Below, in pieces: positions 15,651 to 24,353 of a stretch of 64,000 bases of DNA; position 1 is the stretch's first letter; each line of letters opens with the position of its first letter. The translations under genes and the position numbers were made by a program. Below the pieces are notes generated by a model. The model ran no database searches and was not told where the DNA came from. It saw only the letters and a list, made by a program, of their open reading frames with translations. Source of the DNA: Rhodovarius crocodyli (lineage in GTDB: Bacteria > Pseudomonadota > Alphaproteobacteria > Acetobacterales > Acetobacteraceae); assembly GCF_004005855.1 (NCBI RefSeq), contig NZ_SACL01000007.1, positions 1 through 64,000 of the forward strand, in the 5' to 3' direction.

Positions 15651-16351
15651 TCCGCCTCTATTTCCACCCGACCCCCAACCCCGCCAAGATCGCGCTGCTG
15701 CTGGAGGAGCTGGGCATTCCCTTCGAGGTCGTCCCAGTGGACACCAGCAAGGGTGAGCAGCATGAACCTGCCTTCCGCGCCATCAACCCCAACGGCAAGG
15801 TGCCGGCCATCGTCGATACCGACGGGCCGGGCGGGCAGCCCGCGCGGGTGTTCGATTCCACCGCCATCCTGCTCTACCTGGCGGAGAAATCCGGCCGCTT
15901 CCTGGGCACCCCGGCCGATCGACCTGAGCTGCTGTCCTGGCTGCTGTTCATCGCCTCGGGCCTGGGCCCCTTCTCGGGCCAGGCGGTGCATTTCCAGTAC
16001 GCGGCGCCCGAGGGGCTCGCCTATGCCGTCAACCGCTACAGGCGGGAGGCCGAGCGCCACTACCAGGTGCTGGAGGACCACATGGCCGGGCGCGACTGGA
16101 TGGTGGGCCAGGGCTACACCATCGCCGACATCTCGGCCTGGGGCTGGCTGGACCGTGCCTCACGCGTGATGAAGGGCGCCGAGGACCCGCTCGCGCCCTA
16201 TCCCAACCTGAAGCGCTGGTTCCAGGCGGTGGAGGCGCGGCCCGCCGTGGCGCGTGCCCGCCTGGTCGGCACTGGCCATGCCTTCAAGAAGGTGAATGAC
16301 GAGGAGACGAGGCGCGCCCTGTTCCCGTCCAACTACCCGCCCGCGAATTAG
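15647..16351 (+). CDS. Glutathione S-transferase family protein
   Basis: A 234-residue GST. The N-terminal thioredoxin-fold domain (YFHPTPNPAKIALLLEELGIPFEVVPVD) includes NPNGKVPAIVD and DSTAILLYLAEK for glutathione contacts. The C-terminal all-helical domain follows from about 95. The wording matches the YfcG/YghU (nu-class) group, which often works as a disulfide reductase. It overlaps the peroxiredoxin gene by 4 bases (ATGA), which fits a shared role in glutathione-dependent peroxide or electrophile detoxification. Confidence 0.9.
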   Translation: MIRLYFHPTPNPAKIALLLEELGIPFEVVPVDTSKGEQHEPAFRAINPNGKVPAIVDTDGPGGQPARVFDSTAILLYLAEKSGRFLGTPADRPELLSWLLFIASGLGPFSGQAVHFQYAAPEGLAYAVNRYRREAERHYQVLEDHMAGRDWMVGQGYTIADISAWGWLDRASRVMKGAEDPLAPYPNLKRWFQAVEARPAVARARLVGTGHAFKKVNDEETRRALFPSNYPPAN

Positions 16352-16415
16352 CCGCGGAACCCCGTAACCCCGGCGCGATCCAGCGCGAAGCACCTGTCAC
16401 GATCCCGGAGGGTTC

Positions 16416-17762
16416 ATGCAGATCGCGTCGACGGACAGAGGGGACCCCGCCTGGCGGCTGGCGCTGCTGGGGATGGTGCTGGTGGCGATGGTCGCCGTCG
16501 GCCCCAGCCTGCATCGCGCCGCGGGCGACCTCGCCTTCAACGCGCTGGGCGTGGCCCATGGGTTGCTGGTGCTGTGGGCGCTCAGCCTGGCGGGGCGGGC
16601 GCCCAGCCGGCGGGTCATGGTCGTGATCATCGTGGTGGCGGTGCTGCTGCGGCTCGCGCTGCTGTTCGTGCCGCCGCACCTGTCCACCGACGCCTTCCGC
16701 TATGTGTGGGACGGCCGCGTGCAGGGGGCGGGCATCAACCCCTATCGCTATGTGCCGGCGGCCCCTGAGCTCGCGCCACTGCGCGATGCCGCGATCTGGC
16801 CCTTCATCAACCGTGCCGACTACGCGGTCACGATCTATCCGCCGGCGGCCGAGATCTTCTTCTTCCTGGTCGGGCGCATCGCCGACGGTCTGGTGCCGCT
16901 CAAGCTCGCGCTCATCGCCTGCGAGGCGGTGACGATGCTGGTGCTGCGCGACCTGCTGCGCCGGATGGGCCAGCCCGAGACCCGCCTCATCGCCTATGCC
17001 TGGCATCCGCTGGCGGTGTGGGAGATCTCGGGCAGCGCGCATGTGGACGGCGCGATGGTGGCGGTGCTGGTGCTGGGCATCTGGGTCGCGGTGGCGGCGC
17101 GGCGGCCGGTGCTGGCGGCGGGCGTGCTGGCGGTCGCGGCCCTGATCAAGCCGCTGGCCGCGCTGGCGCTGCCGCTGGCCTGGAAGCCCTGGGGCTGGCG
17201 TGCGCCCGCCATGGCGATCGGCACGGCGGCGCTGCTCTACGTCCCCTACCTGTCGGTCGGCACCGGCATCTTCGCCTTCGTCGGCGGCTATGTGCAGGAG
17301 GAAGGGCTCGAGAGCGGCGACGCCTTCTGGCCGGTCTGGCTCGTGCAGGCGCTGGCCGGGCCGCAGGGCTGGGCCAAGCCGCTGTACCTGCTGCTGGCGG
17401 CCGCGCTGCTGCTGGCGATGGCCTTCCGCCTCTCCTTCGCGGCCGAGGAGGGCATCGCGCAGCGGCTGCGCCGCCTGTCCTGGCTGTTCCTGATGGGCGT
17501 GCTGGCGCTCTCGCCCGGCTATCCCTGGTATTTCCTGTGCCTCGTGCCCTTCGTGGTCCTGGTGGGCGCGCCGCCTTTCTGGGCCGCCACCATCGCCTGC
17601 TACCTGCTCTACGACGAGATCCCGGGCGATGCGTCCATCGCCTTCTGGGTCCGCGACGGGGCGTTGCACCTGGCCATCATCGCCTCCGCGCTGTGGATGC
17701 TGCGCCCGCGCGCGCCCGCCACGGCCCCCCAACCCCGCATCACCGAGGAACCGAGCCGATGA
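16416..17762 (+). CDS. Polytopic membrane glycosyltransferase-like protein (GT87/DUF2029-like)
   Basis: A 448-residue membrane protein with about 10-12 hydrophobic segments. The first large loop contains RLALLFVPPHLSTDAFRYVWDGRVQGAGINPY, including the acidic residues typical of polyprenyl-phosphate-sugar-dependent transferases, followed by YPPAAEIFF and later LALSPGYPWYFLCLVPF. Such enzymes transfer a sugar from a lipid carrier on the periplasmic side. A GGAGG motif is 4 bases before the start. It overlaps the next gene by 4 bases and opens the glycosyl/redox cluster ending at 23260. Acceptor and sugar are unknown. Confidence 0.75.
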   Translation: MQIASTDRGDPAWRLALLGMVLVAMVAVGPSLHRAAGDLAFNALGVAHGLLVLWALSLAGRAPSRRVMVVIIVVAVLLRLALLFVPPHLSTDAFRYVWDGRVQGAGINPYRYVPAAPELAPLRDAAIWPFINRADYAVTIYPPAAEIFFFLVGRIADGLVPLKLALIACEAVTMLVLRDLLRRMGQPETRLIAYAWHPLAVWEISGSAHVDGAMVAVLVLGIWVAVAARRPVLAAGVLAVAALIKPLAALALPLAWKPWGWRAPAMAIGTAALLYVPYLSVGTGIFAFVGGYVQEEGLESGDAFWPVWLVQALAGPQGWAKPLYLLLAAALLLAMAFRLSFAAEEGIAQRLRRLSWLFLMGVLALSPGYPWYFLCLVPFVVLVGAPPFWAATIACYLLYDEIPGDASIAFWVRDGALHLAIIASALWMLRPRAPATAPQPRITEEPSR

Positions 17763-18505
17763 ACGCTCGCCCGCCGCATGCCGGCAGCATCGCCGTGGCC
17801 ATCATCTGCAAGACGCCGATGGCCGGACGCTCCAAGACGCGGCTGTCCCCGCCGCTGCGGCCGGAGGAATGCGCGGCCATCTCCGCCTGTTTCATCCGCG
17901 ACCTGGCGGTCACCATCGACGGCCTGTCGGGTGAGGGCGTGCGGGGCTATGCCGCCTATACCCCGGCGGGTTCGGAGCCCGCGCTGCGCCCGCTGCTGCC
18001 CGAGAGCTTCGGCCTGGTGCTGCAGGGCGAGGGCGACCTGGGCGACCGGCTGCTGAAGGCCGCCGAGGACCTGCTGGCGCTGGGCCATGCCGGGGTCATC
18101 CTGGTCAATTCCGACAGCCCCACCCTGCCGCCCGCCATCCTGCGCGATGCGGTGGCGGCGGTGCGGCGCGGCGGCAATGTCACGCTGGGGCCGGCCAGCG
18201 ACGGCGGCTACACGCTGATCGGCCTGTCGGCCACGCATCCGCGCCTGTTCGCCGAGATCCCCTGGAGCACGGAGGTGGTCTGCCGCCTCAGCCGCGACCG
18301 CGCGGCCGAGATCGGCATGCCCGTGGTGCTGGTCGACCCCTGGTACGACATCGACGACGCCCATTCCTATGCGGTGCTGGAGGCCGAGCTGCGCGGCACG
18401 CCGCCGGCCTTCGCGGTGCCGGGGCGGCCCTTGCAGGATGCCCCGGCCACCCGCGACTTCGTGGCCCGCCGCGCCGCCGCGCGCCCCATGCCGCAGGTGG
18501 TGTGA
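17759..18505 (+). CDS. DUF2064 / TIGR04282-type glycosyltransferase-like protein
   Basis: A 248-residue protein with a nucleotide-sugar-transferase-like fold: AVAIICKTPMAGRSKTRLSPPL at the N-terminus, the acidic VNSDSPTLPPAIL near residue 120, and LGPASDGGYTLIGLS near 145. This is the DUF2064 (TIGR04282) family, annotated in databases with arsenosugar biosynthesis and resembling CofC/MobA-type nucleotidyltransferases. The start overlaps the previous stop by 4 bases (ATGA) and its own stop overlaps the GT2 start by 1 base, so expression is tightly coupled. No arsenic genes are near, so the arsenosugar label should not be assumed. Confidence 0.85.
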   Translation: MNARPPHAGSIAVAIICKTPMAGRSKTRLSPPLRPEECAAISACFIRDLAVTIDGLSGEGVRGYAAYTPAGSEPALRPLLPESFGLVLQGEGDLGDRLLKAAEDLLALGHAGVILVNSDSPTLPPAILRDAVAAVRRGGNVTLGPASDGGYTLIGLSATHPRLFAEIPWSTEVVCRLSRDRAAEIGMPVVLVDPWYDIDDAHSYAVLEAELRGTPPAFAVPGRPLQDAPATRDFVARRAAARPMPQVV

Positions 18506-19221
18506 TGCTGCGCGGCGTCGCTGTCGTGATCCCCTGCCTGAACGAGGCCGAGCCCATCGCCGCCGTGGTGCGGGAGGTGCTGGCCCAGGGCGTGAGCGAG
18601 GTGATCGTGGTGGATAACGGTTCGACCGATGCCACGGCCGATATCGCGCGCCTGGCCGGGGCGCGCGTCGTCAGCCAGCCCCTGCGCGGCTACGGCCATG
18701 CCTGCGCCGCCGGGGTCGCGGCCATCGGGCCCTGGTGTGAGTTTGTCTGCTTCATGGATGGCGACGGCAGCGACGTCCCCGCCTTTCTCGGCGCCATGGT
18801 GGCGCCCCTGGCCGAGGACCGTGCGGATTTCGTCCTGGGCTCCCGCCTGCGCGGCGTGCGGGAGGCAGGGAGCCTGACGCCGCAGCAGCTGGTGGCCGGG
18901 CGCATCGCGGGGGTGCTGCTGCGCCTGGTCTATGGCGTGCGCTTCACGGACATGTCGCCGATGCGCGCCATCCGGGTCGACCGGCTGCTGGCGCTGGACA
19001 TGCGCGAGCGCAGTTTCGGCTGGAACCTGGAGATGCAGATGCGCGCCGCCGCCGGCGGCCTGCGCTGCCTGGAGATACCGGTGGACCACCGCTGCCGCCG
19101 GGGCGGCGTGTCCAAGGTCTCGGGCAATCTGGCCGCCGGCCTGCAGGCCGCCTGGAAGATCGGCACCACCTTCCTGCGCCTGGCGCTGACGCTGCGGCGC
19201 GGGGCCATGGCGCGGCCATGA
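18505..19221 (+). CDS. Glycosyltransferase family 2
   Basis: A 238-residue GT2 enzyme of the dolichol-phosphate-mannose-synthase-like group: VVIPCLNEAEPIAAVVREV, VVDNGSTDATADIARLAGARVV, the metal-binding FMDGDGSDVP, LGSRLRG, and the C-terminal HRCRRGGVSKVSGN. The start ATG at 18505 overlaps the preceding stop (TGATG); a GTG at 18502 is an alternative. It likely makes a polyprenyl-phosphate sugar that the GT87-like membrane protein could use (inference from pairing of these families). Confidence 0.88.
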   Translation: MLRGVAVVIPCLNEAEPIAAVVREVLAQGVSEVIVVDNGSTDATADIARLAGARVVSQPLRGYGHACAAGVAAIGPWCEFVCFMDGDGSDVPAFLGAMVAPLAEDRADFVLGSRLRGVREAGSLTPQQLVAGRIAGVLLRLVYGVRFTDMSPMRAIRVDRLLALDMRERSFGWNLEMQMRAAAGGLRCLEIPVDHRCRRGGVSKVSGNLAAGLQAAWKIGTTFLRLALTLRRGAMARP

Positions 19222-19243
19222 GGACGAGAGGGGAGAGACCCGC

Positions 19244-20290
19244 ATGCGCATCCTTCTGACCGGCGGCGCCGGCTTCATCGGCCGCCATGTGCTGGCCCGC
19301 CTGCTGCGGCGGGGGCATGAGGTGAGGGTGCTCGACTCCCTGCGCGCCGACGTGCATCGCGGCGCGCCCTGGGTGCCGCCCAAGGGGGTGGAGCTGCGCG
19401 TCGCGGATGTGCGCGACAGGGGCGCGGTCGAGGATGCGCTGGCGGGCATGCAGGCCGTGATCCATCTGGCCGCCAAGGTCGGGCTCGGCGTCGATATGGA
19501 CGACATGCCGGACTACGCCTCCTCCAACGACGCGGGCACCGGCGTGCTGCTGGCGGCCATGGCCAGGCGGGGGGTGGGGCGGCTCACGCTTGCCAGCTCC
19601 ATGGTGGTGTATGGCGAGGGGCTCGGCCTGTGCGCGGAGCACGGCGCGGTGCGGCCCGGCCCCAGGCTGGAAGCGAGCCTGGCGGCGGGGGATTTCGAGC
19701 CGCCATGCCCGCATTGCGGCCGGGCGCTGCAGGTGCGGCTGGTGGATGAGGCGACGCCCTTCGACCCGCGCAACGCCTATGCCACCAGCAAGGCCGCGCA
19801 GGAGCATTACGCGGCGAATTGGGCGCGGGCCACCGGCGGATCGGCGGCCATGATGCGCTATCACAATGTCTATGGCCCCGGCATGCCGCGCGACACGCCC
19901 TATGCCGGGGTGGCGTCCATCTTCGCCTCCGCCCTGCGGGCCGGGCGCGCGCCGCAGGTGTTCGAGGATGGCGGCCAGCGGCGCGACTTCATCCATGTGG
20001 CCGATGTGGCGGCGGCCACCGTCCTCGCCTGTGAGCGCCACGCAGGGGGTGTGGATGCCTTCAACGTGGGCTCCGGCACGCCCCGCACCGTGGGCGGCAT
20101 GGCGCAGGCCCTGGCGGACGCGCTGCGCGGGCCGGCACCCGTCGTCACCGGCCGCTACCGGCTGGGCGATGTGCGCCACATCACCGCCGATTCCGCCCGC
20201 CTGCGCGATGTGCTGGGCTGGCGGCCCGAGATCGGCTTCGAGGCCGGCATGGCCGAGCTGGCGGCGCTGCCCGCCGGGGCGGCGGCATGA
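19244..20290 (+). CDS. NAD-dependent epimerase/dehydratase (extended SDR)
   Basis: A 348-residue extended SDR. TGGAGFIG at 6-13 binds NAD; the catalytic pair is Y179 and K183 (YATSK), with S118-S119 upstream. Residues about 125-170 form an insertion holding C155-P-H-C158-G, a zinc-ribbon-like pair seen in some sugar 4-epimerases such as the dTDP-L-rhamnose 4-epimerase group. It probably epimerises an NDP-sugar in the cytosol to feed the transferases of the cluster. It overlaps the cytochrome b gene by 4 bases, so the sugar and redox halves of the cluster are coupled. Confidence 0.88.
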   Translation: MRILLTGGAGFIGRHVLARLLRRGHEVRVLDSLRADVHRGAPWVPPKGVELRVADVRDRGAVEDALAGMQAVIHLAAKVGLGVDMDDMPDYASSNDAGTGVLLAAMARRGVGRLTLASSMVVYGEGLGLCAEHGAVRPGPRLEASLAAGDFEPPCPHCGRALQVRLVDEATPFDPRNAYATSKAAQEHYAANWARATGGSAAMMRYHNVYGPGMPRDTPYAGVASIFASALRAGRAPQVFEDGGQRRDFIHVADVAAATVLACERHAGGVDAFNVGSGTPRTVGGMAQALADALRGPAPVVTGRYRLGDVRHITADSARLRDVLGWRPEIGFEAGMAELAALPAGAAA

Positions 20291-20934
20291 CCGCGATGGA
20301 CGCCGCGCGGCCGCCCCGCACCCGCCGGCTGCACCCGCTGCCGGTGCGGATCCTGCACTGGATCAACGCCGCGACGATGATCGTGATGATCCTGTCCGGC
20401 TTCGGCATCTACAATGACGAGGCCATCCTGGACTGGGTGTTCTTCCCCCATTGGCTGCTGCTGGGCAGCTGGGCGGCGGAACACCTGCTGTGGCACCTGG
20501 CCGGCATGTGGCTGCTGGTGCTGAACGGCGCGGCCTATCTGGCCTATGGCCTCATCAGCGGGCGCTTCCGCGAACGCTTCCTGCCGATCTCGGCGCGCGA
20601 GGTGCTGGCGACGGTGCGGGACACGCTGCGGCTCAGGCTCTCGCACCAGGATATCACCGTCTACAACGCGGTGCAGAAGCTGCTCTACATCGGCGTCATC
20701 CTGGCCATCATCGTGCAGGTGGCGACGGGGCTGGCCATCTGGAAGCCGGTGCAGCTGGCCTGGCTGACCGCGCTGTTCGGCGGGTTCCAGGGCGCGCGGC
20801 TGGCCCATTTCATCGGCATGGCCTGCATCGTGGGCTTTCTGCTGGTGCATGTCGCGCTGGCGCTGCTGGTGCCGCGCACCATCCTGGCCATGGTTCTGGG
20901 CGGGCCGCGCATTCCCCCGCAACCGGCGGAGTAG
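20287..20934 (+). CDS. Cytochrome b/b6 (b561-type) membrane protein
   Basis: A 215-residue membrane protein with four main hydrophobic helices. It begins with a positively charged leader, then HPLPVRILHWINAATMIVMILSGFGI. Candidate haem ligands are H24, H70, H174 and H188, the spacing expected for a di-haem b-type cytochrome. It ends 6 bases before a sulfite-oxidase-like molybdoprotein, so it is most likely its quinone-linked membrane electron partner, analogous to MsrQ for MsrP but from a different family. The start overlaps the epimerase gene by 4 bases. Confidence 0.87.
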   Translation: MTAMDAARPPRTRRLHPLPVRILHWINAATMIVMILSGFGIYNDEAILDWVFFPHWLLLGSWAAEHLLWHLAGMWLLVLNGAAYLAYGLISGRFRERFLPISAREVLATVRDTLRLRLSHQDITVYNAVQKLLYIGVILAIIVQVATGLAIWKPVQLAWLTALFGGFQGARLAHFIGMACIVGFLLVHVALALLVPRTILAMVLGGPRIPPQPAE

Positions 20935-20940
20935 AACCGC

Positions 20941-21729
20941 ATGAACAAGCCCCTGCTTCCCTCCCGCTTCCGCCCCGCCCTGCGCCCCGACCCGGGGCTG
21001 CTGGAGGAACACGCGCCGGCGCTGCGCGCGGCGGAACGGCGCATGCTGCTGCGCGGCAGCCTCTCCCTCGGTGCGCTGGCCATGCTGGGCGGCTGCAGCA
21101 CCAGCGATTCCGCCGGCATCCAGGCGGCGCTGCGTGCCGTCTCCCGCTTCAACGACCGGGTGCAGGCCTGGCTGTTCGACCCGAACCGCCTGGCGCCGAC
21201 CTATCCGGAATCGATGGTGCTGAAGCCGCCGCGCTTCAACGCCTTCTACGACGTGGATGAGGTGGTGCCGGTGGAGGCCGCGAGCTGGCGCCTGGAGCTG
21301 TCCGGGCGCGTCGCGGAACGCCAGGCCTGGGACCTGCCGCGGATCATGGCGCTGCCGGAGAGCGAGATCATCATCCGCCACATCTGCGTCGAGGGCTGGG
21401 ACTATATCGGCCAGTGGTCCGGCGTGCCGCTGCGGCTGTTCCTGGAGCGCGTGGGTGCGGACACGCGCGCGCGCTATGTCGCGTTCCGCTGCGCCGACGG
21501 CTATTGGGGCAGCATCGACATGGCCACCGCCCTGCATCCGCAGACGCTGCTGGCCACGAAATACGCGCGCCAGCCGATGGCCGACCCGTTCGGCTTTCCG
21601 CTGCGCCTGCGCACCGCCACCAAGCTCGGCTTCAAGAACCCCAAATGGATCACCTCCATCGAGGTGACCAACACCGACCCCGGCGGCTTCTGGGAAGATC
21701 GCGGCTTCAACTGGTTCAGCGGCCTCTGA
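20941..21729 (+). CDS. Sulfite-oxidase-fold molybdopterin oxidoreductase (exported, possible lipoprotein)
   Basis: A 262-residue oxidoreductase with the sulfite-oxidase molybdopterin domain. C149 in IIIRHICVEGWDYIGQWSGVPL matches the molybdenum-binding cysteine, and RTATKLGFKNPKWITSIEVTN is typical of the YedY/MsrP side of the family. The N-terminus holds RRMLLRGSLSLGALAMLGGC, a Tat-like signal with a lipobox-like GGC at 50-52. It has no dimerisation domain. With the cytochrome b upstream it forms a predicted periplasmic reductase or oxidase. The substrate is unknown, and its place in a glycosyl cluster is unusual. The stop overlaps the aminotransferase start by 1 base. Confidence 0.88.
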   Translation: MNKPLLPSRFRPALRPDPGLLEEHAPALRAAERRMLLRGSLSLGALAMLGGCSTSDSAGIQAALRAVSRFNDRVQAWLFDPNRLAPTYPESMVLKPPRFNAFYDVDEVVPVEAASWRLELSGRVAERQAWDLPRIMALPESEIIIRHICVEGWDYIGQWSGVPLRLFLERVGADTRARYVAFRCADGYWGSIDMATALHPQTLLATKYARQPMADPFGFPLRLRTATKLGFKNPKWITSIEVTNTDPGGFWEDRGFNWFSGL

Positions 21730-22817
21730 TGAACGCCATCCCGCGCTTCAACCTGGCCGAGAGCACCGTCCGCAGCCTGCGGCTGGAGGAGTTGCTGCTG
21801 TTCGCCGAGACCGGTTCCGGCCTGCTCGACCTGCCGTTGGACTATGGCGACAGGGCAGGGCTGCCGGCCCTGCGAGAGGTCCTGGCCGCGCAGTCGGGTG
21901 TCGCGCCCGATGCGGTGGTGACGCTGCCGGGCACCATGCTGGGGCTGCACCTGCTGGCGCGCCGCCTGTGCCGGGCGGGCGGAGAGGCGCTGCTGGTCAC
22001 GCCCTGCTATGGCCCGAGCCGCACCGTGCTGGACCAGGCCGGGGTCGTGGTGCGCACCGCCCGGCTGCTGTTCGAGGAAGGCTACCGGCCCGACATCGCC
22101 CGCATCGCCGCCATGCTGCGGCACGAGACGCGGCTGGTGGTGCTGGCCGACCCCAACAACCCCAGCGGCGTGCGCATGCCGCGCGAGGCGGTCCAGGCCC
22201 TGCTGGGGGCCATGGCGCGCCGCGCGCCGCGCGCGGTGCTGTTCATCGACGAGACCTATCGCGAGGCGACATATGGCCCGGAGCCCGCGCCCAGCGCCGC
22301 CTGCCTCGGCCCGCGCGTCGTCACGGCGGGCTCGCTGTCCAAGGCGCATGGCGCGCCCGGCCTACGCATCGGCTGGCTGACCGTGCCCGACGCGCCCCTG
22401 CGCGAGGAGCTGGCCGCCGCGAAGGAGGCATTGATCCTCTCGGGCTCCGTGCTGGACGAGACCTTGGCCGCGGCCCTGCTGGCCCGGCCCGAGGGGCTGC
22501 TGGCCGAGCGGCGCCACGCCCTGGCCCATGCGCTGGACATGGTGACCTGCTGGCAGGCGGACCACGCGCCGCTGCTGGAGATGGTGCGGCCGGAGGCCGG
22601 GGCGCTGTGCTGCCTGCGCCTGAACCCGGCCCGCGTGGGCCCGCAGGCGGTGATGCGCTTCTGGGCGGCCTTGCCGCAGAAGGAATTGCGCCTGGCCCCC
22701 GGCCCCTGGTTCGGCGAGGCGCCGGGCGTGTTTCGCCTGGGCTTCGGCCATCTGCCCCCGGCCGCCCTGGCCGCCGCGCTGCGCGCCCTGTCCCGCGTGC
22801 TGGAGGAAACCTTGTGA
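21729..22817 (+). CDS. PLP-dependent aminotransferase, class I/II
   Basis: A 362-residue fold-type I PLP enzyme. Visible landmarks are DPNNPSG (141-147), FIDETYREATYG (172-183) and the Schiff-base lysine K205 in SLSKAHGAPGLRIGWL. It is shorter than typical AspC enzymes and resembles the aminotransferases annotated as capreomycidine synthase or valine-pyruvate-like. The start overlaps the molybdoenzyme stop by 1 base (TGATG), and its own stop overlaps a GTG start by 4 bases. It may transfer an amino group to a keto acid or keto sugar of the cluster product; substrate unknown. Confidence 0.87.
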   Translation: MNAIPRFNLAESTVRSLRLEELLLFAETGSGLLDLPLDYGDRAGLPALREVLAAQSGVAPDAVVTLPGTMLGLHLLARRLCRAGGEALLVTPCYGPSRTVLDQAGVVVRTARLLFEEGYRPDIARIAAMLRHETRLVVLADPNNPSGVRMPREAVQALLGAMARRAPRAVLFIDETYREATYGPEPAPSAACLGPRVVTAGSLSKAHGAPGLRIGWLTVPDAPLREELAAAKEALILSGSVLDETLAAALLARPEGLLAERRHALAHALDMVTCWQADHAPLLEMVRPEAGALCCLRLNPARVGPQAVMRFWAALPQKELRLAPGPWFGEAPGVFRLGFGHLPPAALAAALRALSRVLEETL

Positions 22818-23260
22818 GCCACGCGCCATCCATCACGCTGCTGGGCGCCCTGCTGGCCTGGGCAGGGCCCGCCGCCGCCCAGCACCCGGCGAACGCCCCG
22901 CCCCCGCCTGCGGAGCGCAGCGCGGAGGCCCGCGCCCGCTACCCCCAGCCGGTGCGGGTAGGGGATCTGCTCGGGCGCCAGGTGCTGGAGGATTCGCCCC
23001 AGCAGACCGTGCTCGGCCGCGTGGCCGGCGTGACGCGCGACACGGAGGGCGTGGCCATTCTCGTCGATTGCTGCGGTATCCTGGGCTTCGGCACCCGGCG
23101 GGTGGCGCTGCCTGTCGAGACCATGACGCTGCTGGGCCAGTTCATGGTGGCGCGTGGCCAGGACCGGCAATCCATGGCGCTGCTGCCTGCGGTGGCCCCG
23201 GCCCGCGCGGCGCCCCTGCCGGTGGATGCCTCCATCCGGGTGGGCCTCGGCCGCAACTGA
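22814..23260 (+). CDS. Exported PRC-barrel-like protein
   Basis: A 148-residue protein starting with GTG at 22814, overlapping the aminotransferase stop by 4 bases (GTGA). A signal peptide (to about AGPAAAQ) is followed by a Pro/Ala-rich linker and a small beta domain (VGDLLGRQVLEDSPQQTVLGRVAGVTRDTEGVAILVDCCGILGFGTRRVALPVETM) like a PRC barrel. This gives a periplasmic adaptor-like protein. Two adjacent cysteines in VDCCGI are notable. It closes the coupled cluster that began at 16416. Function unknown. Confidence 0.7.
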   Translation: MSHAPSITLLGALLAWAGPAAAQHPANAPPPPAERSAEARARYPQPVRVGDLLGRQVLEDSPQQTVLGRVAGVTRDTEGVAILVDCCGILGFGTRRVALPVETMTLLGQFMVARGQDRQSMALLPAVAPARAAPLPVDASIRVGLGRN

Positions 23261-23357
23261 CGGGGAAGGGGGGAAGCCCCCCGCACATGCCACCCCTGCC
23301 ACAATCGCCCCGGTCGGCGGGTTGCGCAGCGGTGAAGGCGCGGCCACATTCCGGGCC

Positions 23358-23567
23358 ATGAGGATGCCCATCGCCATCACCCTCAACGGCGAACGCCGTG
23401 AGGTCCGCGCGGCCAGCGTGGCCGAGCTTCTGGCCGAGATCGGCCTGGACACGCGCAAGGTGGCCGTGGAGCTGAACGAGGAGATCGTGCCCCGCAGCAC
23501 CTATGCGGCGCAGGCCCTCACCGGCGGCGATCAGCTCGAAATCGTTCATTTCATCGGCGGAGGCTGA
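23358..23567 (+). CDS. thiS: Sulfur carrier protein ThiS
   Basis: A 69-residue ubiquitin-like sulfur carrier: ITLNGERREVRAASVAELLAEIGLDTRKVAVELNEEIVPRSTY and the essential C-terminal diglycine in HFIGGG. After thiocarboxylation it gives sulfur to thiazole synthase. It ends 3 bases before thiG. The start could be 23358 or 23364 (MPIAITL). I see no TPP riboswitch consensus in the 97 bases upstream; only a short G6/C6 hairpin at 23268-23282. Confidence 0.92.
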   Translation: MRMPIAITLNGERREVRAASVAELLAEIGLDTRKVAVELNEEIVPRSTYAAQALTGGDQLEIVHFIGGG

Positions 23568-23570
23568 GCC

Positions 23571-24353
23571 GTGGAAGATAGTTGGGAAGTCGCGGGGCGA
23601 CGGTTCTCGTCGCGCCTGATCGTGGGCACGGGCCGCTACAAGTCGCTGGAGGAAACCGCTGCCTCCATCGAGGCGAGCGGTGCCGAGATCGTGACGGTGG
23701 CCGTCAGGCGGGTGAACATCGCCGACCCCAACGCGCCGATGCTGCAGGATTTCGTGCCCCCTACGAAATACACCTACCTGCCGAATACCGCCGGCTGCCA
23801 CACCGCCAAGGACGCCGTGCGCACGCTCCGGCTCGCGCGGGAGGCCGGGGGCTGGAACCTGGTGAAGCTGGAAGTGCTGGGTCCGCCGCCCTTCCTGTAC
23901 CCGGACATGGCCGGCACCTTCGAGGCCGCTGCCGCGCTGATCGCCGACAATTTCGAGGTCATGGTCTATTGCGCCGACGACCCGGTGGCGGCCAAGCGGC
24001 TGGAGGAAATGGGCTGTGTCGCCATCATGCCGCTGGGCGGGCCGATCGGCTCGGGCCTCGGCGTTGCCAACCCCTATATGATCCGCGCCATCAAGCAGCA
24101 GGCAAAGGTGCCGGTGCTGGTGGATGCGGGCATCGGCACGGCGTCGGACGCCGCCTTTGCCATGGAACTGGGCTGCGACGCGGTGCTGCTGAACAGCGCG
24201 CTGGCCCATGCGCAGGACCCCGTGGGCATGGCGGTGGCCATGAAGCACGCGGTCATCGCCGGGCGCGCGGCGTATCTCGCGGGGCGCATGCCCCGCAACT
24301 ACGAGGCCAACCCCTCCAGCCCCACCAGCGGGCTGATCGGCCGCGCGGGCTGA
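23571..24353 (+). CDS. thiG: Thiazole synthase ThiG
   Basis: A 260-residue TIM-barrel thiazole synthase starting with GTG 3 bases after thiS. The imine-forming lysine is K99 in NLVKLEVLG. Other family segments are [40 protein letters not shown], and the C-terminal phosphate loop around [12 protein letters not shown]. It condenses deoxyxylulose phosphate, ThiS-thiocarboxylate and dehydroglycine into the thiamin thiazole. Only thiS and thiG of the pathway are in this window; thiO, thiE and thiC would have to be elsewhere. Confidence 0.95.

Follow-up and report, generated by a model that had tools for sequence, protein, structure and literature searches.

We examined positions 1-64,000 of contig NZ_SACL01000007.1 (the window) from Rhodovarius crocodyli (GCF_004005855.1), a member of the Acetobacteraceae whose genome assembly comprises 5.27 Mb in 48 contigs. 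Between positions 16416 and 23260, the window carries eight genes in which enzymes of a probable lipid-linked-sugar pathway are joined to a cytochrome b and a molybdoenzyme. A preliminary description of this DNA had named the genes, noted that most overlap by 1 or 4 bases, and called the combination "not a pathway I know". The genes encode the following proteins, where SDR is short-chain dehydrogenase/reductase, SAM is S-adenosylmethionine, and PLP is pyridoxal phosphate.

16416..17762, plus strand: GT87-type integral membrane (GT-C) glycosyltransferase, presumed to depend on a polyprenyl-phosphate sugar; assigned by identity to the GT87s of related clusters and through a Methylobacterium counterpart that passes PF09594
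17759..18505, plus strand: DUF2064/TIGR04282 protein, presumed sugar-activating nucleotidyltransferase; family models above cut-off
18505..19221, plus strand: GT2 glycosyltransferase, presumed polyprenyl-phosphate sugar synthase, with an alternative GTG start at 18502; Pfam above cut-off
19244..20290, plus strand: SDR epimerase/dehydratase with a C-x2-H...C-x2-C motif, taken as the replacement of a radical SAM enzyme; Pfam above cut-off
20287..20934, plus strand: b561/Ni_hydr_CYTB-type cytochrome b, presumed quinol-oxidising partner of the molybdoenzyme; Pfam, conserved histidines, and position beside the molybdoenzyme in most loci
20941..21729, plus strand: sulfite-oxidase-fold molybdoenzyme, MsrP-like, with a Tat (twin-arginine translocation)-like signal, lipobox Cys52, and molybdenum-ligand-like Cys149; Pfam, with signal and ligand roles by analogy
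21729..22817, plus strand: fold-type I PLP enzyme, GntC/VioD-like below cut-offs, a private addition; Aminotran_1_2 above Pfam cut-off
22814..23260, plus strand: exported protein with a predicted PRC barrel, accessory of clade A molybdoenzymes (see below); Pfam matches of relatives and a structure model

The described overlaps were found at five of the seven junctions: 4 bases between genes 1 and 2, 4 and 5, and 7 and 8 (the last with a GTG start), and 1 base between genes 6 and 7 and between genes 2 and 3 (4 if GTG 18502 is the start). Genes 3 and 4 are separated by 22 bases and genes 5 and 6 by 6 bases. No match to a sigma-70-type promoter or a terminator was found within 16300-23700.

Family searches supported the names in the preliminary description, those of the GT87 and PRC proteins by way of relatives and a model. 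The GT2, SDR epimerase, Ni_hydr_CYTB, Oxidored_molyb, and Aminotran_1_2 matches are all above their Pfam cut-offs; the first and last genes have no Pfam match of their own. The first protein shares 37-47% local identity with the GT87s of related clusters, and its Methylobacterium counterpart, 41% identical, matches GT87 (PF09594) at 35.4 bits (cut-off 25). The second protein scores 93.4 bits with DUF2064 (cut-off 25.8), passes TIGR04282 (154.4 bits against a cut-off of 134), and is the single PF09837 match in its genome. The GT2 enzyme is 77-78% identical to copies in two related genomes, G028 and G548 (loci L043 and L140); its nearest NCBIfam model is AglJ (119.7 bits, under the cut-off of 325).

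The redox pair also has recognizable features. The cytochrome b matches PF01292 at 75.5 bits (cut-off 30.1), and histidines 24, 70, 120, 174, and 188 are kept in 110-112 of 112 sequences, in keeping with the di-haem protein first described. No MsrQ model, MsrQ being the partner of MsrP, was among its family matches. The molybdoenzyme matches PF00174 at 99.2 bits, which places it in the sulfite-oxidase fold. Cys149, by analogy the molybdenum ligand, is conserved in at least 97% of 101 aligned rows, as are Arg34, in a Tat-like motif, and Leu49, Gly51, and Cys52, which by eye and analogy form a lipobox.

Clusters of this type recur in other alphaproteobacteria. On plasmids of Methylobacterium aquaticum (pMaq22A_2p in strain MA-22A) and M. 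radiotolerans, genes for a cytochrome b, a molybdoenzyme, an exported protein, DUF2064, GT87, a radical SAM enzyme, GT2, and a PLP enzyme lie in the same direction, and the order cytochrome b, molybdoenzyme, DUF2064, GT87, radical SAM, GT2 is found in both Acetobacteraceae and Methylobacterium. We then used the radical SAM family (an alignment of 16 rows, with a mean column identity of 81%) to scan named genomes. Of the 291 relatives confirmed, the 80 best loci were retained, to which some genomes, such as M. hispanicum and A. rubrifaciens, contribute two. Among the loci with enough sequence, DUF2064 was present in 56 of 57, GT87 in 49 of 57, GT2 in 67 of 73, the molybdoenzyme in 45 of 57, and the cytochrome b in 43 of 57; the profile models were built in part from loci later searched with them, and the simple script used to call genes in unannotated loci misses or misframes some in GC-rich DNA. 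The order DUF2064-GT87-radical SAM-GT2 was intact in 45 of the 55 loci that have enough flanking sequence on either side, and in 33 of the 55 the cytochrome b and molybdoenzyme genes, at times with the PRC gene, lie directly ahead of it. The linkage of sugar genes and redox pair is thus well supported, and the proposed coupling of lipid-linked-sugar enzymes to a molybdoenzyme and its dedicated cytochrome b holds in many genomes.

The window is a variant of this cluster type, with an SDR in place of the radical SAM enzyme. Among 299 family genomes, SDR orthologues of 77-80% identity occur in G028, G548, and G115, which belong to one other genus, and in G637, of the window's genus; other matches are at most 47% identical, and nothing as close was found in draws of 385 genomes from the class and 398 from the phylum. 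No radical SAM orthologue was found in the window's genome (best match 33% over 91 residues) or in any of the five SDR genomes (best 30%). The best solved relative of the radical SAM enzyme is BtrN (E 1.3e-13), a radical SAM dehydrogenase that acts on an aminocyclitol. The gene order in G028 and G548 is a Cys/Met-type PLP enzyme, DUF2064, GT2, SDR, a PRC protein on the opposite strand, cytochrome b, molybdoenzyme, and a membrane protein of 654-656 residues. The G115 contig, which ends within the SDR gene, has a short molybdoenzyme and the membrane protein, with no cytochrome b match. Because the relatives in G028, G548, G115, and G637 differ in content, what is conserved is the cluster type and not the precise eight-gene set of the window; the genes of this type lie in order in relatives, not scattered.

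The zinc-ribbon insertion attributed to the SDR corresponds to the C-x2-H...C-x2-C motif, which is kept in the three complete orthologues of 77-80% identity. As it also occurs in two SDRs of 41-42% identity (L288 and L289), the motif is not unique. A pattern search did not find it in the Arthrobacter and Rhodococcus relatives described below, and we rejected it as a marker of the pathway.

Two positions in the clusters are filled by alternative proteins. When 100 loci were reduced to 79 by removing identical radical SAM or SDR segments, all with DUF2064 and one of these two enzymes, 64 contained GT87, nine a different membrane protein, six neither, and none both. The membrane protein, present in nine of the 15 clusters that lack GT87 (L043:7101-9062, L140:4892-6859, L214:11715-13946, and others), has no Pfam match in the two members scanned. 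Its model has a mean predicted local distance difference test (pLDDT) score of 80, and all 11 PDB matches at probability 1.0 are GT-C glycosyltransferases, suggesting that it substitutes for GT87. Similarly, of 60 de-duplicated molybdoenzyme clusters, 26 contain the PRC protein, 27 a solute-binding protein, seven neither, and none both. Seven of 15 members of the PRC alignment, the window protein not among them, match PF05239 at E<=1 (best 1.8e-6). The model of the window protein (mean pLDDT 81) has PRC barrels as its top PDB matches (probability about 1.0, E 0.001 and above), and we assign it to this fold on the strength of the model. The solute-binding protein, of the SBP_bac_11 type (Pfam-checked in L169), is encoded directly ahead of cytochrome b in L169:2321-3061 and 14 other loci, in clusters without PRC. 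We read the SDR and the radical SAM enzyme, by analogy, as a third interchangeable pair.

The molybdoenzymes of these clusters form clades of their own. We built a midpoint-rooted tree of 101 rows after dropping duplicates, rows shorter than 190 residues, and rows with stops. Clades A and B are starred, a third group, C, is less firm (92/90), and A is closer to C than to B under this root. Clade A (34 rows) consists of the window, 24 sugar-linked rows with PRC, five unlinked rows with PRC, and four contig ends. Clade B (33 rows) has 30 sugar-linked rows, two unlinked rows, and one contig end. Clade C (34 rows), which includes copies on Burkholderia and Rhizobium plasmids, has 21 unlinked rows, 13 contig ends, and no sugar-linked row. 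Clades A and B therefore hold the window and each of the 54 other sugar-linked rows. In the genomes of the seven unlinked A or B rows, a radical SAM gene lies at another site or is fragmented close by. In L039 (G062), the radical SAM gene lies in pieces among what by eye are transposase-like genes, beside a cytochrome b/molybdoenzyme pair.

The same association is seen across genomes. The radical SAM gene is present in 24 of 29 genomes with clade A or B, and three of the other five are SDR genomes; it is present in six of 91 genomes without A or B and in two of 19 with C alone. Clade labels were assigned to genomes by hand from the tree (G023 and G094 by BLAST), G083 received no label, being 40% identical to either side, and G079, whose broken gene is C-like, was excluded from the C-only list. 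As the loci are related to each other, Fisher co-occurrence values are descriptive.

The PLP enzyme, in contrast to the cluster type, is not conserved. The amino-sugar idea of the preliminary description leans on it, and its GntC and VioD matches (159.5 and 151.9 bits, below cut-offs of 415 and 390.9) are of the arginine-derived cyclodehydratase type. At E<=1e-35, 118 of 120 family genomes gave no match to it; among the 119 other than the window's own, G099 alone has a close relative (46%), on a different contig from its cluster. The enzyme stands apart from the PLP enzymes encoded in related clusters, and PLP enzymes of the methylobacterial-cluster type occur in 13 of 59 loci with enough sequence. 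The gene is thus best regarded, from these comparisons, as a private addition. Since the enzyme is ungrouped and nearly without close relatives, we dropped it as a clue to an amino or guanidino sugar. Past the cluster, 97 bases on and on the same strand, lie thiS and an ORF that by eye resembles thiG (23358-24353).

Related genes also occur in Actinomycetota and on distant plasmids. The closest plasmid SDR matches (52-66% identity) are seven actinobacterial records of the 168 matched. In six of these records, genes for GT2, DUF2064, GT87, and a methyltransferase are close to the SDR gene, and in six, all but Nonomuraea, there is a molybdoenzyme. Identities to the window are 51-66% for the SDR, 40-41% for GT2, 31-32% for GT87, 27-32% for DUF2064, and 26-31% for the molybdoenzyme. 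In Kitasatospora, Arthrobacter, and Rhodococcus, the larger molybdoenzyme, judged by eye, begins with a hydrophobic stretch that contains histidines and thus resembles the window's cytochrome b and molybdoenzyme fused into one protein. These three records also have a methylthioadenosine (MTA) phosphorylase gene; in Arthrobacter and Rhodococcus it shares 4 bases with the SDR gene. The Mycobacterium abscessus record has the molybdoenzyme and SDR only, plus a GT87-like end about 7 kb away. In Kitasatospora, a class IV lanthipeptide precursor and LanL are encoded just upstream of the SDR (L290:5239-8033).

Two further plasmid loci offer side evidence, with no molybdoenzyme/cytochrome b pair in the stretch read. 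A Pseudoalteromonas plasmid carries GT87, a large NAD(P)-binding protein, GT2, and DUF2064 in a row (L297:3242-8741). On a Miltoncostaea oceani plasmid, one ORF annotated GT2 (L296:5705-7660) has a GT87-like and a GT2 part and resembles a natural fusion of two of the cluster's enzymes; it adjoins DUF2064, and a radical SAM/SPASM gene lies about 3 kb off.

The pathway is less unfamiliar than the preliminary description implied: the combination of GT2, GT-C enzyme, and SDR with an MTA-derived sugar resembles the synthesis of methylthioxylose (MTX) in mycobacteria. According to published accounts, MtxS (Rv0539) forms MTX-P-C50 and MtxT (Rv0541c) transfers MTX (PMC8780516), the donor is MTA and the reaction is extracytoplasmic (PMC11127046), and a title in a reference list names Rv0535 as MTA phosphorylase. 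The sulfoxide, MSX, is described in lipoarabinomannan (LAM; PMC8531672), and a title cited in PMC5911930 refers to a natural carbohydrate substrate of methionine sulfoxide reductase A. Like this pathway, the cluster has enzymes of the two kinds concerned, a presumed polyprenyl-phosphate sugar synthase and a GT-C transferase that would act outside the cytoplasm; three actinobacterial relatives place MTA phosphorylase near the SDR, and the known sugar occurs with its sulfoxide. The window cluster differs in lacking a linked MTA phosphorylase and in adding a cytochrome b, a molybdoenzyme lipoprotein, and a PRC protein, while sister clusters use a radical SAM enzyme. The window's organism, an alphaproteobacterium, is not known to make LAM. 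Literature searches for methylthioxylose with Methylobacterium, Acetobacteraceae, or sulfoxide reductase gave one partial match, concerning LAM. Three-component pentofuranose systems likewise add a pentofuranose outside the cytoplasm but start from phosphoribosyl pyrophosphate, and the paper on them separates the MTX route from theirs (PMC11127046).

For the redox pair, the nearest known systems are MsrPQ and YedYZ-MrpX, which also combine a sulfite-oxidase-fold molybdoenzyme with a membrane cytochrome. Genes for an extracytoplasmic function (ECF) sigma factor and NrsF lie directly ahead of cytochrome b in five of the 80 loci (Pfam-checked in L162 only). In accounts of perchlorate-reduction islands and of another alphaproteobacterium, ECF/NrsF-type regulators accompany a Met-rich peptide and a YedYZ/MsrPQ pair (PMC4623255, PMC8315932), and the Caulobacter SigF regulon is described as including a YedY-type and a DoxX-family gene (PMC3511200). 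The window differs from these systems in its b561/Ni_hydr_CYTB partner, the lipobox on its molybdoenzyme, a sub-cut-off MsrP score, and its linkage to sugar genes.

The TIGR04282 family is named "arsenosugar biosynthesis glycosyltransferase", a name that the window's DUF2064 protein shares by passing the model. None of the eight genes is named for arsenic, and no arsenosugar model is among the 25 NCBIfam matches listed for the radical SAM enzyme of one sister cluster; after these family matches, we set the arsenosugar reading aside. Our literature search found no paper mentioning DUF2064 and, among the papers listed, none naming TIGR04282.

We consider it very probable that the cluster encodes a conserved lipid-linked-sugar pathway with a dedicated redox pair. 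The DUF2064 protein would convert a sugar phosphate to a nucleotide sugar, the SDR (or the radical SAM enzyme in sister clusters) would alter its stereochemistry, and GT2 would transfer the sugar to polyprenyl phosphate. After flipping, the GT87 enzyme could pass the sugar to a surface glycan, lipid, or protein on the periplasmic side. Cytochrome b would carry electrons from quinol to the molybdoenzyme lipoprotein, which, by analogy with MsrP, would act as a reductase on the transferred sugar product; a reductive role is probable. The leading candidate for the sugar, tentatively proposed, is a 5-deoxy-5-methylthio-pentose made from MTA as in mycobacterial methylthioxylose. If so, the reductase would return its sulfoxide to the thioether. 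Given MSX in LAM and a reported carbohydrate substrate of a methionine sulfoxide reductase, an MsrP-like, quinol-fed lipoprotein would fit reduction of a methylsulfoxide in the periplasm. The whole explanation, a sugar-tailoring operon that makes a methylthio-pentose and re-reduces its sulfoxide, is the one we favor, at somewhat less than an even chance.

Several observations weigh against this explanation. MTA phosphorylase (E<=1e-8) had no match in the window or in 177 other loci searched, nor in the stretch read of four of the seven actinobacterial records. The window's genome has the gene elsewhere (G000 C22:113267), as do 63 of 65 genomes, whether or not they contain the cluster; being near-universal, it does not discriminate and was discarded as a genome marker. 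The case for sulfur therefore comes from distant relatives; the earlier suggestion of a sulfur-containing, oxidised or reduced surface glycan agrees with the MTA phosphorylase of three of the seven actinobacterial records. The likeness to the MTX pathway is drawn at the level of enzyme kind, and the literature passages on that pathway name no molybdoenzyme. The window SDR also resembles ordinary nucleoside diphosphate (NDP)-hexose epimerases and had no match at E<=1e-60 in five further genomes of its genus; the radical SAM form of the cluster need not make the same sugar as the SDR form. Of 57 loci with 5 kb of upstream sequence, 12 have no molybdoenzyme, and the 3.8 kb G637 contig contains the end of GT2, the SDR, and then a different gene, not the cytochrome b pair.

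Some of these points would suit an ordinary deoxy or amino surface sugar without sulfur, beside an MsrP-like pair that repairs methionine sulfoxide generally in the envelope and whose linkage serves regulation or the protection of the glycosylation machinery. An SDR with GT2 is typical of NDP-hexose pathways, the alphaproteobacterial clusters lack MTA phosphorylase, and stand-alone relatives exist in clade C: the Burkholderia plasmid copy lies a few kilobases from metal-transport genes. (The clade C pairs on Burkholderia and Rhizobium plasmids, L036 and L037, are near metal-transport genes or a heavy-metal sensor pair.) However, the sugar-linked molybdoenzymes fall in their own clades and track the sugar genes across genomes, and Actinomycetota have the same combination of genes, in some cases together with MTA phosphorylase; we regard this account as a serious possibility, though a minority one. 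It is improbable that the molybdoenzyme is instead an oxidase, a dehydrogenase acting on sulfite or on the sugar, which would complete the sugar by oxidation and deliver the electrons to quinone. The fold is that of sulfite oxidase, the cytochrome b partner could run in either direction, and there are weak matches to SorA (26.7 bits, cut-off 600) and SoxC (29.1 bits, cut-off 420), but the best NCBIfam match is MsrP, even if its 75.5 bits lie below the equivalog cut-off of 207 and so count against our explanation too. The best structural match is 1xdq, deposited as "Bacterial Sulfite Oxidase" and presumably the reductase YedY, and the ECF/NrsF genes upstream in five loci are as in reductive repair systems. 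That independent genes were thrown together without functional meaning is very improbable: the PLP gene is private, gene order varies between variants, and the G637 SDR is not followed by the pair, but the linkage recurs in many genera of two phyla and the slot partners exclude each other.

If the methylthio-pentose explanation is true, a methylthio-sugar pathway exists beyond mycobacterial LAM, and the mycobacterial sugar pathway may extend to quite different bacteria. A 2024 paper calls it unclear whether the methylthioxylose reaction exists outside LAM assembly (PMC11127046); the clusters supply named candidates, in Methylobacterium, Acidisphaera, and Arthrobacter, and give the DUF2064 family a likely context. 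A bolder extension, which we rate as rather unlikely, is a glycan counterpart of the Met-rich-peptide/MsrP cycle, with the radical SAM enzyme and SDR interchangeable, in which a surface thioether sugar would absorb oxidants as its sulfoxide and the molybdoenzyme lipoprotein would regenerate it with electrons from respiratory quinol. A surface-sugar pathway with a reductase driven by the respiratory chain would be a new kind of envelope antioxidant.

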